In this document: positions 4,877-43,145 of the stretch, piece by piece
How the letters are laid out: every line of letters begins with the position of its first letter
Position numbering within the stretch: position 1 is the first letter of the stretch
NCBI GenBank assembly: GCA_011389765.1
Contig: JAABTT010000004.1
Coordinates: 1 to 64,000 of the forward strand
DNA length: 64,000 bases
Reading direction: 5' to 3'
Source: Desulfohalobiaceae bacterium S24
GTDB taxonomy: Bacteria; Desulfobacterota; Desulfovibrionia; Desulfovibrionales; Desulfothermaceae
Made by a program: the position numbers and the translations under genes
Notes under the pieces: generated by a model
Told to the model about the DNA's origin: nothing
Seen by the model: only the letters and a program-made list of their open reading frames with translations
The model's database searches: none

Positions 4877-5927
4877 TGTACACCGCCAGGGCCATCAGAA
4901 GAATCAAAAGACTGAGCCCGATACGGGTGGCGACTGACTGCCACTTGGGATCAAGGGGTTTTCTGAAGATGATCTCAAGCCCGAAAAACAAAAGATGCCC
5001 TCCATCCAGAACCGGGATCGGCAACAGGTTCAAAAGGGCCAGGTTGATGCTGATCAAGGCCGCCAGGGACAAAACGTCTATCAAACCTTGCTGGGCCTGC
5101 TGACTGACCAGTTGGGCGATCATGATCGGCCCGCCGATGGATTCGATGGGAACAACCCGCTCGATCATCTTGATGATCCCGGTCCAGGTCAAAGAGAAAA
5201 GCTTCCAGGTCTGCGCGACGCCCCCCCAAGCCGATTCAAACAGTCCCATGGAGCGTTCGACCCAGTCATCCGCGGCAACGATGCCGATGCGGGGCACCGT
5301 GATGGTTTCGCCAAATATATTGGTGGACTTTTCAATTTCCGGCCGGATGCTGAAAGTGTGGAGTGTGTCCTCCCGTACCACCTCGAAGCGAAGCGTCTGA
5401 CCCTGGTTTTTTTGAATCCTTGCGGCCAGGTCGCTCCAGTATTCGATTTTTTGACCGTTGATTTTCAAAACCCGATCACCCGCCTGAACACCGGCCTCCT
5501 GGGCCGGTGAATCCGGCACGACTTCACCGATCGTCGGCATGAGGACCTGCTGACCGGCAAACAGAAAGATCAAAAAATATATTGCCCAGGCCAGAAGGAG
5601 GTTAAACACAGGACCGGCGGCCACCACCAGCATCCTCTGCCAGGGAGGACGCAAACTGAAGCTGTCCGACCTGGAAAAACCCTCGGGCAGCTCAGCATCA
5701 GGTGACTCTCCAACCATTTGCACATAGCCGCCTAAAGGGACCGCTGATAAAAGGTAGTCGGTCTTCCCCAGGGTAAAGCCCGTCAAACTGGGACCAAAAC
5801 CCAGGGAAAAAGTTTTGACCCCGATCCGGAAGGCCTTGGCCACAAGAAAATGGCCCAGTTCGTGAAAAAAAATGAGCCCCCCTAAGACCAGGGCTATGGC
5901 AATAATACTCATGGACATAGCGTTCAC
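4845..5927 (-). CDS. rseP: Site-2 zinc metalloprotease RseP-like (M50)
   Basis: An integral membrane protease that cuts substrates within the membrane, such as anti-sigma factors in envelope stress. The 360-residue protein has the HELGH zinc motif at 22-26 in the first membrane helix, one periplasmic PDZ domain at about 115-200 (GVQAGDRVLKINGQ), and the NLLPIPVLDGGHL motif that supplies the third zinc ligand near the C-terminus. E. coli RseP has two PDZ domains and is about 450 residues; this shorter one-PDZ form is common. It lies in the usual dxr-rseP order, 68 bases downstream of dxr. Confidence 0.93.
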   Translation of the reverse strand: MNAMSMSIIAIALVLGGLIFFHELGHFLVAKAFRIGVKTFSLGFGPSLTGFTLGKTDYLLSAVPLGGYVQMVGESPDAELPEGFSRSDSFSLRPPWQRMLVVAAGPVFNLLLAWAIYFLIFLFAGQQVLMPTIGEVVPDSPAQEAGVQAGDRVLKINGQKIEYWSDLAARIQKNQGQTLRFEVVREDTLHTFSIRPEIEKSTNIFGETITVPRIGIVAADDWVERSMGLFESAWGGVAQTWKLFSLTWTGIIKMIERVVPIESIGGPIMIAQLVSQQAQQGLIDVLSLAALISINLALLNLLPIPVLDGGHLLFFGLEIIFRKPLDPKWQSVATRIGLSLLILLMALAVYNDIYRLISVQ

Positions 5928-19311: not shown

Positions 19312-19388
19312 TGGGGTGGGTGACGTGACTTGAACACGCGACCACTTGGGCCACAACCAAGTGCTCTACCACCTGAGCTACACCCACC
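19312..19388 (-). tRNA. tRNA-His (GUG)
   Basis: A 77-base cloverleaf with encoded CCA. It has a seven-base acceptor stem with the extra 5' G typical of tRNA-His, D-arm TAGCTCAGGTGGTAGAGC, anticodon stem CTTGG/CCAAG with loop TTGTGGC (anticodon GTG), and T-arm GTTCAAGTC. Confidence 0.97.
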
Positions 19389-37580: not shown

Positions 37581-37657
37581 TGGTCGGGAAGACTGGATTT
37601 GAACCAGCGGCCCCCTGCTCCCAAGGCAGGTGCGCTACCAGACTGCGCCACTTCCCG
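37581..37657 (-). tRNA. tRNA-Pro (UGG)
   Basis: A 77-base cloverleaf with encoded CCA: acceptor CGGGAAG/CTTCCCG, D-arm with GCGCAGTCTGGTAGCGC, anticodon stem CCTGC/GCAGG with loop CTTGGGA (anticodon TGG), T-arm GTTCAAATC. Confidence 0.97.
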
Positions 37658-37978: not shown

Positions 37979-39025
37979 ATGAACAGAAGAGGCGTCCCTT
38001 ACAAAGAAGCCGGAGTGGACCTGGAGTCTGCCGCAAGCCTGGTCCAGCGCATCAAACCCATTGCGGAAAAAACCTACACCAAAGGGGCCGTGACGAACAT
38101 CGGTCTTTTTGCCGGGATGTTCAAACCCGATCTCCAGGGCATGTCCAGACCCTTGCTGGTTTCCTCCACCGACGGGGTGGGCACCAAGCTCAAACTGGCC
38201 TTTGAACTGGACAAACACGACAGCATCGGCATCGATCTGGTGGGCATGAATGTCAACGACATCGTGGTTCATGGAGCCCAGCCCCTGTTTTTCCTGGATT
38301 ATCTCGCCGTGGATCAGTTGCGCCTGGACCAGGCCGAAGCCATCATTACGGGCATCGCCGAAGGCTGCAAGCAGGCCCAGTGCTCGCTCCTCGGCGGCGA
38401 AACAGCTGAAATGCCCGGTTTCTATGCCCCGAATGAATATGATCTCTCGGGATTCTGCGTTGGCCTGGTCGACGAATCCAATGTGATCGACGGCTCCAAT
38501 ATCGGGATCAACAACTCAGTGATTGGCTTGGCTGCATCAGGCCCCCATTCAAACGGCTACTCCCTGATCCGGAAAATACTCAAGCAAAACGGAGCGCAGC
38601 TCGAGCAGACTCTTCCGGGAAGCAGCCAGACCATCGGCCAGGCCTTGATGGAGCCAACCCGGATCTACGTGAAAAGCATTCTCAATGTCATCCGGGATTT
38701 TGAAATCCGGGGGATGGCCCACATCACCGGAGGCGGATTCTACGACAACCTGCCCAGGATACTGCCCAACGGGGTCCAGGCAGAGATCTATTTCCCCAGT
38801 TGGCCCAAAGCACCGATCTTTGCATGGCTGCAAGAGCAGGGCGGCCTGTCCTGGCAGGAAATGCTGCAGACTTTCAACTGCGGCATCGGTATGGTGCTCG
38901 TTTGTTCGAAACGGCAGACCGGAGACATCCTGCAGCGGCTCAAGGCCCTGGGCCAGGAAGCCTGGCTGATCGGCAAAGTGACCTCCGGCGAGGAAGGGCA
39001 GGAGCAGGTGCAGATCCAGTTTTAG
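37979..39025 (+). CDS. purM: Phosphoribosylformylglycinamidine cyclo-ligase (AIR synthetase)
   Basis: Fifth step of purine synthesis: ATP-dependent ring closure of FGAM to AIR. The 348-residue protein begins VPYKEAGVDLESA and has SSTDGVGTKLKLA, GMNVNDIVVHGAQPLFFLDY, GGETAEMPGFY and HITGGGFYDNLPRILP, as in E. coli PurM (345). GAGG ahead of the ATG supports the start. Convergent with mnmG, overlapping it by four bases. No other pur gene is near. Confidence 0.97.
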   Translation: MNRRGVPYKEAGVDLESAASLVQRIKPIAEKTYTKGAVTNIGLFAGMFKPDLQGMSRPLLVSSTDGVGTKLKLAFELDKHDSIGIDLVGMNVNDIVVHGAQPLFFLDYLAVDQLRLDQAEAIITGIAEGCKQAQCSLLGGETAEMPGFYAPNEYDLSGFCVGLVDESNVIDGSNIGINNSVIGLAASGPHSNGYSLIRKILKQNGAQLEQTLPGSSQTIGQALMEPTRIYVKSILNVIRDFEIRGMAHITGGGFYDNLPRILPNGVQAEIYFPSWPKAPIFAWLQEQGGLSWQEMLQTFNCGIGMVLVCSKRQTGDILQRLKALGQEAWLIGKVTSGEEGQEQVQIQF

Positions 39026-40896
39026 CTTGTTTTTTCCTCCCTGAACTTCTTGATATACACCTGCAAAAGGGAAATCGCGGCCGGGGTCATCCCGGGAATC
39101 CTCGAGGCCTGCCCCAGAGTCTGAGGGGTCACGGCCTTGAGCCGCTCCTGCATCTCATTGGACAGACCTGAAATCCTGCTGTAATCGAATCCGTCAGGGA
39201 TGTTCACCTTTTCCAGCTCCTTGTATTTCTTGATCTCGTCTTCCTGTCGAAGCAGATACCCTTCGTATTTGCACTGAATGTCCACCTGCTCCCGCACCCG
39301 GCCGGACAGCTTAGGCCCCGCCTCAGTCAGGGAAGACACCTGAGCATAGGCGATTTCCGGTCGTTTGAGGAGCTTTCCGGCAGTGATGGTCTCCTGAAGA
39401 GGGGCCGAGCCGAATGCTGCAAGGCGACTGTTCACCGCCTCTGAAGGAAAAACCTTCACCGAGTTCAACCTCTTGAGTTCCTCCTCGACCTGACGGCGCC
39501 TCTCTTCCAAGGCTGCAAGGCTCTCCCGGGACTGCAGACCGAGTTCGCATCCTTTGTGCAGAAGCCGAAAATCAGCATTGTCCTCGCGCAGGAAGAGTCT
39601 GTACTCCGCCCGCGAGGTGAACATCCGATAGGGCTCCCTGACCCCCTTCAGCACGAGGTCGTCGATCATGACCCCCAAATAGGCCTGGGAGCGGTCAAGC
39701 CGGAAGGCGGGCCGCTTCTGAACGGACAGGGCTGCGTTGATGCCGGCCCACAAGCCTTGAGCCGCGGCTTCTTCATAGCCTGAAGTCCCGTTGACCTGCC
39801 CGGCCAGGAAAAGGCCGGCCAGGAGTTTGGTCTCCAGGCTGAGCTCAAGCTGGGTCGGCTGGATAAAGTCATACTCGATGGCATAGGCCGGCCGTATGAT
39901 CTCGGCCTCCTCCAGGCCGGGAACCGATTGAATCATGGCCGACTGGATCTCCAGGGGCAGGGAATTTCCGGTCCCGCTTGCGTAGATCTCTTCCGTTTCC
40001 AAGGCTTCAGGCTGCAAAATAATATGATGGAATTCCCGATCCGGAAACTTCATAACCTTGTCTTCCAGGGACGGACAGTAGCGGGCGGAAACGCCGGAGA
40101 TGCTTCCGTCGTACAGAGGCGAAAAGTGAATATTGCTGCGGATGATCTCGTGTGTCCGGGCGCTGGTCCGCCCGAAATAGCATTTGACCTGGGGCAGGCT
40201 GAAGCCCCGGCTCGTCAAGGCAAAGGGAAGCGCTTCGGGATCGCCGCTCTGCTCCTCGAAGAGACTGAAGTCAATGCTGCGGCGATGCAGCCTGGCCGGG
40301 GTGCCGGTTTTCATCCGGCCGATTGCAAAACCGCAAGCCTGCAGCTGTTCAGGGAGTTCGTTGGAGGGAAATTCCCCGGCCCGTCCCGACGGGATCCGGG
40401 TCGAACCGATATGGACCATGCCGTGCAGAAAGGTCCCGCCGGCCAGCACCACGGCCCCGGCCTGATAGCAGCAGTTGCTCTCATCACGCACGCCGCAAAC
40501 CCGCGAATCTTCGATCAGCAAGGCTTGAACCTGAGCCTGCCTGATTTCCAGGCCTGCTTGTTTTTCCAGGGTGTGCTTCATAAGAGTCCGGTAGCGCACC
40601 TTGTCATTCTGGGTCCTGGTCCCCCGAACTGCCGGACCTTTCCTGGTGTTCAGCCTCTTGCACTGAATCGCGGAGGCATCGCAGACCTTGGCCATTTCGC
40701 CCCCCAGGGCGTCGATCTCCTTGACCAAATGGCCTTTGCCGATGCCGCCGATGGAAGGCGAACAGGGCATATGGGCCATGGTATCCGGATTCATGGTCAG
40801 CAACAGAGTCCGGCAGCCCATTCGGGCCGAAGCCAGGGCGGCCTCGCAGCCGGCATGGCCGCCGCCGATCACGATCAGGTCATATTCGTTTGTCAT
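39022..40896 (-). CDS. mnmG: tRNA uridine-5-carboxymethylaminomethyl modification enzyme MnmG (GidA)
   Basis: FAD protein that with MnmE installs cmnm5 at the wobble U34 of several tRNAs. The 624-residue protein has the FAD loop GGGHAGCEAA (about 12-21), SIGGIGKGHLVKEIDALGG, GTFLHGMVHIG, NGTSGYEEAAAQGLWAGINA, and the C-terminal MnmE/tRNA-binding region (SRAEYRLFLREDNAD, GYLLRQEDEI). Length matches the family. mnmE is not in the window. Confidence 0.97.
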   Translation of the reverse strand: MTNEYDLIVIGGGHAGCEAALASARMGCRTLLLTMNPDTMAHMPCSPSIGGIGKGHLVKEIDALGGEMAKVCDASAIQCKRLNTRKGPAVRGTRTQNDKVRYRTLMKHTLEKQAGLEIRQAQVQALLIEDSRVCGVRDESNCCYQAGAVVLAGGTFLHGMVHIGSTRIPSGRAGEFPSNELPEQLQACGFAIGRMKTGTPARLHRRSIDFSLFEEQSGDPEALPFALTSRGFSLPQVKCYFGRTSARTHEIIRSNIHFSPLYDGSISGVSARYCPSLEDKVMKFPDREFHHIILQPEALETEEIYASGTGNSLPLEIQSAMIQSVPGLEEAEIIRPAYAIEYDFIQPTQLELSLETKLLAGLFLAGQVNGTSGYEEAAAQGLWAGINAALSVQKRPAFRLDRSQAYLGVMIDDLVLKGVREPYRMFTSRAEYRLFLREDNADFRLLHKGCELGLQSRESLAALEERRRQVEEELKRLNSVKVFPSEAVNSRLAAFGSAPLQETITAGKLLKRPEIAYAQVSSLTEAGPKLSGRVREQVDIQCKYEGYLLRQEDEIKKYKELEKVNIPDGFDYSRISGLSNEMQERLKAVTPQTLGQASRIPGMTPAAISLLQVYIKKFREEKTS

Positions 40897-40933
40897 GCTA
40901 TCCTTGCTGCTCCATTCAAAATCCGGGTTCGCA

Positions 40934-40963
40934 TTTACAAGCCGGTGCGGTTTGCCCTATACT
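40934..40963 (+). promoter_or_regulatory. Sigma70 promoter for the YhcC-like gene
   Basis: TTTACA (40934-40939) and TATACT (40958-40963), spacer 18, giving a leader of about 60 bases. It overlaps the upstream region of the divergent mnmG. Confidence 0.6.
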
Positions 40964-41030
40964 CATATTTTCGCATACCTTCATTACGCCAGAACTTAAA
41001 AACAGAACATCCCAAACAAAGCAGCCGTTT

Positions 41031-41933
41031 ATGCCGTTCTACCGTGATTTCAACTCCTATCTGCGAAGCATTTTTGGCGGACGGGTCCAAAAGATCACTC
41101 TGGATGCCGGAATGACCTGCCCCAACCGGGACGGACGTCTCGGCCGGGGCGGCTGTATCTACTGCAATCCTAAAGGGTCGGGGACGGGCGCCTCCGACAG
41201 ATACAGCATCGCCGACCAGATCCAAGCCGCCAAATCCCGGCTCGCGAAACGCTACAAGGCTAAAAAATTTCTGGCCTATTTTCAATCCTTCAGCAACACC
41301 TACGCCCCCTTGCCGGTCCTGCGGCAGGTGTATGCAGAAGCCCTGGCCGATGATGACGTCCTGGGGCTGTCCATCGGCACCCGGCCGGACTGCCTCCCGG
41401 AAGAGGTGCTGGAACACTTGGAATCGCTGGCCAGGGATCGCTTGATCTGGCTGGAACTTGGGCTGCAGTCCTCCAGGGATGCGACTCTGCGCTTCATAAA
41501 TCGCGGACACGACGTGAGCCAATTCACGGATGCGCTCACCAGGATCCAGGCCCGGGGCCTGCCGGTCTGCGCCCACGTGATCCTGGGCCTCCCGGGCGAA
41601 AGCAGAGAAGACATGCTGTACACGGCCCGCTTCCTGGCCGAATCCGGCGTGGAGGCAGTCAAAATCCACCTCTTGTACGTCATCCGGGGAACCCGCTTGC
41701 ACGCCCTGTACAAACAGGGACACTACTCCTGTCTTGAACAGCGGGAGTATGCCTGTCTTGTGGGCGATTTTCTCAGCCTGCTGCCTGAGAAAACCATTAT
41801 CCAGCGCTTGACCGGAGACCCTCACCGGGAAGAGTTGATCGCCCCTGAATGGGCTCTGCAGAAACAAAAAACCCTGGCCATGATTCAGGCCTGTATGCAG
41901 CAAAACAGGCTCTCGCAGGGATCAAATTTATAG
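41031..41933 (+). CDS. TIGR01212-family radical SAM protein (YhcC-like)
   Basis: The 300-residue protein has the unusual spacing of this family's cluster cysteines: CPNRDGRLGRGGCIYC (CX12CX2C) at about 24-39. QSFSNTYAPLPVLRQVY, SIGTRPDCLPEEVL and ELGLQSSRDATLRFINRGH are typical of YhcC, which is related to the Elp3 radical SAM fold. The reaction is not established for the family. From MPFYRDFNSYL the length is right; the longer open frame to 40890 runs through the promoter and is rejected. Confidence 0.9.
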   Translation: MPFYRDFNSYLRSIFGGRVQKITLDAGMTCPNRDGRLGRGGCIYCNPKGSGTGASDRYSIADQIQAAKSRLAKRYKAKKFLAYFQSFSNTYAPLPVLRQVYAEALADDDVLGLSIGTRPDCLPEEVLEHLESLARDRLIWLELGLQSSRDATLRFINRGHDVSQFTDALTRIQARGLPVCAHVILGLPGESREDMLYTARFLAESGVEAVKIHLLYVIRGTRLHALYKQGHYSCLEQREYACLVGDFLSLLPEKTIIQRLTGDPHREELIAPEWALQKQKTLAMIQACMQQNRLSQGSNL

Positions 41934-42091
41934 AATTTTGGATTTGCGATTGTTCAGACAAAGACCAAGAGCCGGGCATCTGAGACAAAACAACTCGTAC
42001 AACCGGAGGACAACGGTGAACCGGAGTGTAAAATGCTGAAACGCAGCAAAAATTTGTACAAAACTTCTGAGACGCGATACTAGGAGGGAAC

Positions 42092-42499
42092 ATGCGATTG
42101 CCGGTTTCAGCCTTGCGTCAGGAGTGGCCGTCCCAGAACCTCCCGGAAATCGACGAACAAGAGGAGCCCGAAGACACAGAAAACGGACGGCACCTGGTCT
42201 GCGCCGGCTGTCACAATCCCATAACCCACAGCCGCTATCGAATTGCCAGGGAGGGACAGCACACACACGTTTTCTTCAACCCCCACGGACTGGTTTTTGA
42301 AATCGGCTGTTTTTCAAATGCTTCCGGCTGTCTTCAGGCAGGCCAGACCACTTCCGAGTTCAGCTGGTTCCCGGGCTACGCCTGGCAGATCGCCCTTTGT
42401 TCCGCCTGCGGTCTCCATCTGGGCTGGCGATTCCAATCCAAAGAAGGAGACGGTTTTTACGGCTTCATCCTGAGCTGTCTGCTTGAACAGCCTCTTTAA
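42092..42499 (+). CDS. Single-domain cereblon homologue (CULT domain protein)
   Basis: The 135-residue protein is an acidic leader (1-33) plus one CULT domain, the thalidomide-binding zinc fold of human cereblon. Zinc ligands fit: Cys37 and Cys40 (LVCAGC) and Cys103 and Cys106 (CSAC). The three cage tryptophans are Trp92, Trp98 (SWFPGYAW) and Trp112 (LGW). Their spacings (6, 14, and 5 from the second Trp to the third Cys) equal those of human W380/W386/W400 and C391/C394, and of the bacterial MsCI4 protein. The cage should bind cyclic-imide-like or uridine-like ligands; the natural role in bacteria is unknown. AGGAGG sets the start. It overlaps the convergent rpe by 35 bases. Confidence 0.9.
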   Translation: MRLPVSALRQEWPSQNLPEIDEQEEPEDTENGRHLVCAGCHNPITHSRYRIAREGQHTHVFFNPHGLVFEIGCFSNASGCLQAGQTTSEFSWFPGYAWQIALCSACGLHLGWRFQSKEGDGFYGFILSCLLEQPL

Positions 42500-43145
42500 A
42501 TTGTTGCCGCCGCCGGGCATAGGGCGGATGTCCGAAAAAGGCCGAACCTGAAACCAGGACATCGGCGCCGCTGTCCACAATGGCTTTGGTGTTGTCCAGA
42601 TCAACTCCGCCGTCGACCTGGATGAGGGCCTTGCTTTTCCGGTGTTCGATCATGTTTTTCAAATCCCGTACCTTCTTCAGGCTGAAGGGAATGAAGCGCT
42701 GCCCCCCAAACCCCGGATTCACGCTCATGACCAGGACCATGTCCAACCGGGGGAGCACGTACTCGAGGACATTGAGGGGGGTATGGGGATTCAGGGCCAC
42801 GGCCGGCTTGGCCCCTAATTCCTGGATGCGGCTCACCACGCGTTCCAGATGCCGGGAGGCCTCGGCGTGGACACAAATCAAATCGGCCCCGGCCCGGACA
42901 AAATCATCCAGATAGGCCTCAGGCTGTTCGATCATGAGATGGACATCGAAAAACAGACTGCTCCTAGCGCGGCATTTGGCAATCACCGGCGCCCCGAAAG
43001 TGATGTTCGGGACAAAATGACCGTCCATGACGTCCCAGTGCGCCCACTGCAGGCCGGCCTGCTCCAGAGCGGCCAATTCCTCATGCAAGCGGCTGAAGTC
43101 CGAAGAAAGCAGGGAAGGCGAAAGGATAAACCCTTGATCAGTCAT
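42465..43145 (-). CDS. rpe: Ribulose-phosphate 3-epimerase
   Basis: Interconverts ribulose 5-phosphate and xylulose 5-phosphate. Of 226 residues, PSLLSSDFSRL, WDVMDGHFVPNITFG (metal His and Asp), FDVHLMI, VMSVNPGFGGQRFIP and QVDGGVDLDNT are all family blocks. Divergent from tkt, which uses its product. Its 3' end overlaps the cereblon-like gene. Confidence 0.97.
   Translation of the reverse strand: MTDQGFILSPSLLSSDFSRLHEELAALEQAGLQWAHWDVMDGHFVPNITFGAPVIAKCRARSSLFFDVHLMIEQPEAYLDDFVRAGADLICVHAEASRHLERVVSRIQELGAKPAVALNPHTPLNVLEYVLPRLDMVLVMSVNPGFGGQRFIPFSLKKVRDLKNMIEHRKSKALIQVDGGVDLDNTKAIVDSGADVLVSGSAFFGHPPYARRRQQFKEAVQADSSG

Follow-up and report, generated by a model that had tools for sequence, protein, structure and literature searches.

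What does the drug-binding domain of cereblon do in a bacterium? The question is raised by an open reading frame (ORF) of Desulfohalobiaceae bacterium S24 (assembly GCA_011389765.1), found within positions 1–64,000 of contig JAABTT010000004.1, the whole stretch of 64,000 nucleotides analysed here and called the window in what follows. At 42092–42499 on the plus strand, running from an ATG at 42092 to a stop codon that ends at 42499, this ORF encodes a CULT-domain protein of 135 amino acids, and its gene is single-copy in the 3.5 Mb draft genome. Crystallographers widely use MsCI4, the CULT protein of Magnetospirillum gryphiswaldense, in place of cereblon, as many structure entries attest; the portions available to us of the literature searched on bacterial CULT proteins hold no account of the role of these proteins in their own cells. 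We find that the ORF encodes a genuine bacterial CULT protein, a cereblon homologue with a complete aromatic cage, in which a zinc-pinned beta-tent domain (about residues 34–135) stands behind a flexible tail. The kind of protein is already known; what appears to be new is a motif in this tail, which many relatives share.

The assignment rests on sequence search, residue census, ORF translation and predicted fold. The best match among solved structures was MsCI4 (phmmer, E value 7.5e-24, residues 36–134), with cereblon chains ranking next (E values from 2.6e-15 to 8.4e-13), a similarity well beyond what chance would give. A Pfam scan of the 135 residues gave only Yippee-Mis18 at 22.0 bits, below the cut-off of 26.6, and an NCBIfam scan gave no match near any cut-off; neither scan returned a CULT model. 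An AlphaFold2 model built from the window protein and 76 relatives reached a mean predicted local distance difference test score (pLDDT) of 86.5, with 98 residues at 90 or above and block means of 50–62 over the first 30 residues. The overlay on MsCI4 that the initial annotation had proposed as a check produced a match: among the Foldseek matches listed (50 of 484), the model superposed on MsCI4 with a root-mean-square deviation of 1.2–2.2 Å (TMt 0.87–0.94) and on cereblon with 1.3–1.8 Å, and it displays the beta-tent fold of the CULT family. Sequence search, predicted structure with fold search, and residue census thus all bear out the original identification of a bacterial cereblon homologue with a complete cage.

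The four cysteines and three tryptophans on which that identification had been built (C37, C40, C103, C106; W92, W98, W112) are each present in the translated 135-residue ORF. Both zinc pairs, C37-x-x-C40 (42200–42211) and C103-x-x-C106 (42398–42409), are placed by the MsCI4 alignment and by family spacing, the first also by the sequence itself; the NPxG hairpin tip N63-P64-H65-G66 (42278–42289) is placed by sequence and residue census, and the cage segment W92-F-P-G-Y-A-W98 (42365–42385) and the third cage tryptophan W112 (42425–42427) by MsCI4 alignment and residue census, all on the plus strand. The tryptophans are spaced by 6 (W92 to W98) and 14 (W98 to W112), and W98 lies 5 residues from C103. 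Because the phmmer alignment of the two proteins runs without gaps from residue 36 through the third tryptophan, these spacings equal those of MsCI4, as had been claimed; the same spacings are presumed for human cereblon. Y96 of the window protein is the counterpart of MsCI4 Y83, which is named as a supporting residue, together with the cage residues W79 and W85, in PMC4449219, where the NPxG hairpin is also said to steady the first cage tryptophan. From this cage, binding of thalidomide-type imides or of uridine by the window protein is predicted.

How rigidly the cage is kept was assessed across the family, using 80 public loci that are the best 80 of 187 relatives found by contig scan (some identical to records L002–L030). 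In all 81 CULT proteins (these 80 and that of the window) exactly 66 residues separate the two CxxC pairs, and a census of 126 distinct cores showed invariance in every one at the four zinc cysteines and at H59, N63, P64, W92, F93, W98, G111 and W112, with position 114 occupied by F in 69 cores and by Y in 57. Part of this invariance is built in: the search patterns that had brought in the public loci covered NPxG or F[TS]WF..W, and admission of the other cores depended on a regular expression for the cysteines, NPxG and W..W, which 60 of 62 loci passed, the two failing loci (L111 and L143) being left out of the census; H59, G111 and W112 were never required for entry. The window member adds evidence for rigid conservation of the cage. 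One of the two excluded loci, L143, encodes a CULT protein without the NP of NPxG in which the four cysteines and three tryptophans are kept. Two extra cysteines, C73 (42308–42310) and C80 (42329–42331), occur together in 101 of the 126 cores and may either neighbour each other across strands or form a redox pair; by the ungapped alignment MsCI4 keeps C73 only, C80 falling on a leucine there.

The initial annotation had called the protein single-domain. This holds in that CULT is its only domain and a LON domain is absent; the label is nonetheless incomplete, because the tail preceding the domain carries a motif common to many relatives. An unsupervised search for an 8-residue motif, run on the 71 of 81 tails that passed a 50% redundancy filter, gave a log-likelihood of 231.5 versus 117.8 ± 5.2 in 12 shuffles (25 restarts for the real data, 12 for each shuffle) and a profile that reads hydrophobic-hydrophobic-[L/F]-[R/K]-x-P. 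Reduced to a simple rule, hydrophobic-[L/F/C]-[R/K] at 24–40 residues ahead of the first zinc cysteine, the motif is found in 52 of the 81 proteins versus 5.8 ± 2.3 expected from shuffles, this regular expression having been fixed after the 81 proteins had been viewed. A second set of 41 further non-redundant proteins yielded 27 with the motif versus 2.9 ± 1.6, and in neither set did any of 1000 shuffles reach the observed count. Within this second set the motif occurs in 16 of 27 proteins not seen beforehand and in 11 of 14 from the L002–L030 loci, some of whose N-termini had already been viewed before the test. Two properties of the data bear on these statistics: the shuffles leave shared ancestry in them, and start codons were picked, once the N-termini had been viewed, by a rule that relied on ribosome-site-like bases, preferred ATG and set a length range. 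As background, other ORFs of the same loci (at least 200 amino acids, recurrent clusters, possibly including a few CULT or shadow ORFs) show the motif in 195 of 1485 random windows and 42 of 297 N-termini, or about 13–14%.

Anchoring on the motif was achieved for 82 of 122 proteins, and in 77 of these the basic residue lies 27–33 residues before the cysteine; in the profile of the 82, acidic residues are frequent 16–20 positions after this basic residue. The window protein itself shows a weak instance, A7-L8-R9 (42110–42118, plus strand), 28 residues before C37 and with a low position weight matrix score of 3.3, followed by an acidic linker at residues 19–30 (42146–42181, plus strand), which is recognised from the sequence and from the acidic positions of the anchored profile. 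Many bacterial CULT members are thus more than the domain alone, with a tail motif and then an acidic linker ahead of it. The accessible portions of the literature searched on bacterial CULT proteins hold no description of this motif that we could find.

We put at roughly 35% the probability of the reading that we favour, in which the bacterial CULT protein is a cyclic-imide reader whose tail docks a partner; natural ligand, docking and partner are all what we infer. The cage would read an aspartimide or glutarimide at the C-terminus of damaged proteins, a group that the same cage recognises in cereblon. Held on the acidic linker, the N-terminal hydrophobic-[L/F/C]-[R/K] motif would dock a partner, and the docked partner would remove or repair the bound protein, an AAA+ protease such as ClpXP or Lon being our first guess. 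This ligand is favoured because the cage is that of cereblon, which binds C-terminal cyclic imides that PIMT is able to make (PMC13001092), and because the genome of the window (G000) holds three PIMT matches (TIGR00080) over the cut-off, on contigs C69, C51 and C45. The zinc domain of ClpX favours LKxh peptides (PMC7226468) and an SspB-derived ligand of this domain is reported to bind at any chain position (PMC12373786), which makes ClpX a reasonable first candidate for the partner and no more. The tail motif resembles LKxh in many members; binding of ClpX by the tail would be hypothetical, and we do not file the protein as a ClpX adaptor. As a separate observation, contig C83 of the same genome (G000:C83, 36971–38871) carries, on one strand and some 1.2 kb from each other, a match to the ClpX zinc domain and one of the genome's two Lon matches.

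Several results weigh against the cyclic-imide reader with its docking tail. PIMT is found in all 61 order-level relatives (59 over the cut-off; the window's own genome is one of the 61), with or without CULT, and hence does not discriminate: its co-occurrence was rejected as a clue for being uninformative. Neither a ClpX, a Lon nor a PIMT homologue lies near the CULT gene in the stretches covered at the 81 loci. By the simple rule, 29 of the 81 proteins and 14 of the 41 lack the motif, the window protein's own instance is weak, and some of the motif statistics can be put down to shared ancestry. The crystallised chain of MsCI4 has 24 residues ahead of its first zinc cysteine, so that not every family member has the tail, and the absence of CULT from 20 of the 61 relatives means that its function is dispensable. 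We also considered a separate LON-domain partner, which was rejected: 59 of the 61 relatives each show two PF02190 matches, neither more nor fewer, and always in frames of at least 586 amino acids; the exceptions, G010 (four matches) and G048 (three), have shorter frames that were taken for draft-genome fragments.

Set beside the cyclic-imide reader, a small-molecule sensor seems to us somewhat unlikely: the cage would bind a free imide-like metabolite such as uridine or a modified uridine, whose level the protein would buffer or report. Such a role would suit the gene upstream, the tRNA-uridine modification gene MnmL/YtqA, next to which lies a gene that is presumably mnmG, but mnmL was found beside CULT in only two of the 80 public loci, both same-genus, and a sensor alone leaves the shared tail motif unexplained. 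As for the ligand, there is a solved complex of MsCI4 and deoxyuridine (entry 4v31), and PMC4449219 discusses uridine as a ligand. The tail could instead be a lid that folds back along the cage on ligand binding and needs no outside partner, an arrangement compatible with either kind of ligand that we regard as unlikely. Full-length human cereblon has such an N-terminal extension (PMC4449219), and in a second predicted model, that of the relative L104, only residues 8–14, around the tail motif, reach a pLDDT of 50 or more among the first 37, which could reflect partial docking on the domain, or nothing. Confidence in the tail is, however, low in both models (block means of 50–62 for the window protein; 33–47 over the first 30 residues of L104), and the MsCI4 cage forms without such a tail.

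That the protein is an enzyme, catalytic like its fold relatives MsrB and GFA and opening, for example, cyclic imides, perhaps via C73 and C80, we consider very unlikely. The fold is common to enzymes (PMC4287342) and both cysteines are present in 101 of 126 distinct cores, yet C80 aligns with a leucine in MsCI4, it is the zinc and cage set that is invariant, and the solved MsCI4 complexes include, to go by the entry titles, intact glutarimide drugs, with some titles also naming hydrolysis products. Since PIMT and Lon are both present in 61 of 61 relatives, neither can decide between reader, sensor, lid and enzyme.

The gene occurs in the window's own lineage and beyond. CULT was found in 41 of the 61 order-level relatives, covering 13 of 18 genera; a phylum-wide sample of 296 genomes contains it in at least 33, a lower bound because at most 15 first-look candidates were scored per genome. 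The best 80 of the 187 relatives are mostly labelled as Desulfobacterota-type bacteria, with few Gammaproteobacteria, Acidobacteria and Chloroflexi; the closest among them are metagenome-assembled genomes of Desulfohalobiaceae, and the window groups with loci L031 and L032 in a tree of few columns, 31 of whose 79 forks are open, which was used solely for this grouping. An origin from phage or plasmid was rejected: there was no CULT match among 50,697 phage and 72,556 plasmid records, six stretches of viral contigs that matched the pattern encoded no CULT relative, and a viral fold library gave no match to the model at an E value of 0.001 or better. An apparent fusion in genome G051 was likewise rejected, the frame being a CULT copy that lacks both the first zinc pair and the NPxG portion; it is included in the count of 41 and left out of the core census. 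This truncated copy (locus L111, about 5060–5307) has a tail that reads FLFRKSP, and is a decaying or altered member.

Turning to the neighbourhood, the CULT gene follows a radical SAM gene on the plus strand (40890–41933 as an ORF from the first start codon, though an ATG near 41031 may be the real one), and rpe lies downstream on the minus strand (42465–43145); both are given as context and not as part of the mechanism. Further upstream, a minus-strand gene at 39022–40896 is presumably mnmG, and rpe is followed by a presumed transketolase gene and then a further one. The initial annotation had correctly placed the CULT gene between a radical SAM gene and rpe with an overlap of 35 bases, and had called the former YhcC-like; it is identified here as MnmL/YtqA (TIGR01212, 343.9 bits, cut-off 180). 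The further suggestion that the overlap hints at regulation found no support and was rejected: CULT and rpe are convergent and overlap stop end to stop end (42465–42499), and mnmL and rpe adjoin CULT in only two of the 80 public loci, L031 and L032, both of the same genus, and were not found beside it in the other 78, some of which have short flanks. With genes tail to tail and neighbours that recur only in two same-genus loci, the overlap does not point to regulation. By ORF coordinates, the overlap is also convergent and of 35 bases in L031 and L032. A scan for promoters and terminators gave one promoter-like site against 0.4 expected, lying at 42007–42034 a short way ahead of the CULT gene, and three terminator-like sites against 1.9 expected.

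The survey of neighbours across relatives that had been proposed was carried out by clustering ORFs of at least 70 amino acids over the 80 public loci and the window, with flanks that are uneven (at least 3 kb on both sides in 50 of the 80), and guilt by association yielded no conserved CULT partner in the 81 loci. The largest non-CULT cluster (28 loci) consists of opposite-strand ORFs overlapping the CULT gene, which were taken for shadow ORFs, and genuine neighbour families adjoin CULT in at most 6 of 81 loci, three of them resembling by eye a CobA/HemD-type gene, coaE and a kinase. As no neighbour family adjoins it in more than 6 of 81 loci, the CULT gene behaves as an orphan whose neighbours do not reveal its role. 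The window also contains tRNA-Pro(tgg) at 37581–37657 and tRNA-His(gtg) at 19312–19387, both on the minus strand.

The shared tail motif offers a concrete handle for finding the partners of CULT proteins. If bacterial CULT proteins do recognise cyclic imides at protein C-termini, then the degron of cereblon would predate ubiquitin ligases. A bolder extension, which we judge distinctly improbable, would make bacterial CULT proteins ubiquitin-free cereblons, adaptors that hand imide-ended damaged proteins to ClpXP (or Lon) via the tail motif, with the eukaryotic pathway descending from an older bacterial quality control.

Comparison with known systems places the window protein closest to MsCI4 (MGR_0879, cereblon isoform 4, PDB 4v2y and others), with which it shares fold, cage and zinc site at 38–42% identity in the structural matches listed. 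The two differ in that MsCI4 has Y101 where the window protein has F114, and in that the crystallised MsCI4 chain, with its 24 residues before the first zinc cysteine, has no motif at 27–33 residues upstream. The CULT domain of eukaryotic cereblon shares the fold and the three-tryptophan cage (31–35% identity among the matches listed), and F114 is at the position of human F402; cereblon, however, has a LON domain and acts in an E3 ubiquitin ligase, whereas the window protein, at 135 amino acids of tail and CULT only, does neither. SspB and other ClpX adaptors offer a likeness in working only: in both, a small binding domain goes with a flexible linker and a short peptide of hydrophobic-basic type, which is N-terminal in CULT proteins and C-terminal in SspB, ClpX binding here being hypothetical and the fold of SspB being a different one. 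The window protein belongs to a known kind, since bacterial CULT proteins, mainly delta-proteobacterial and including that of Desulfonatronospira, were already described in 2015 (Lupas et al., PMC4287342): it takes its place in this bacterial single-domain group, in many members of which the tail motif is now recognised.
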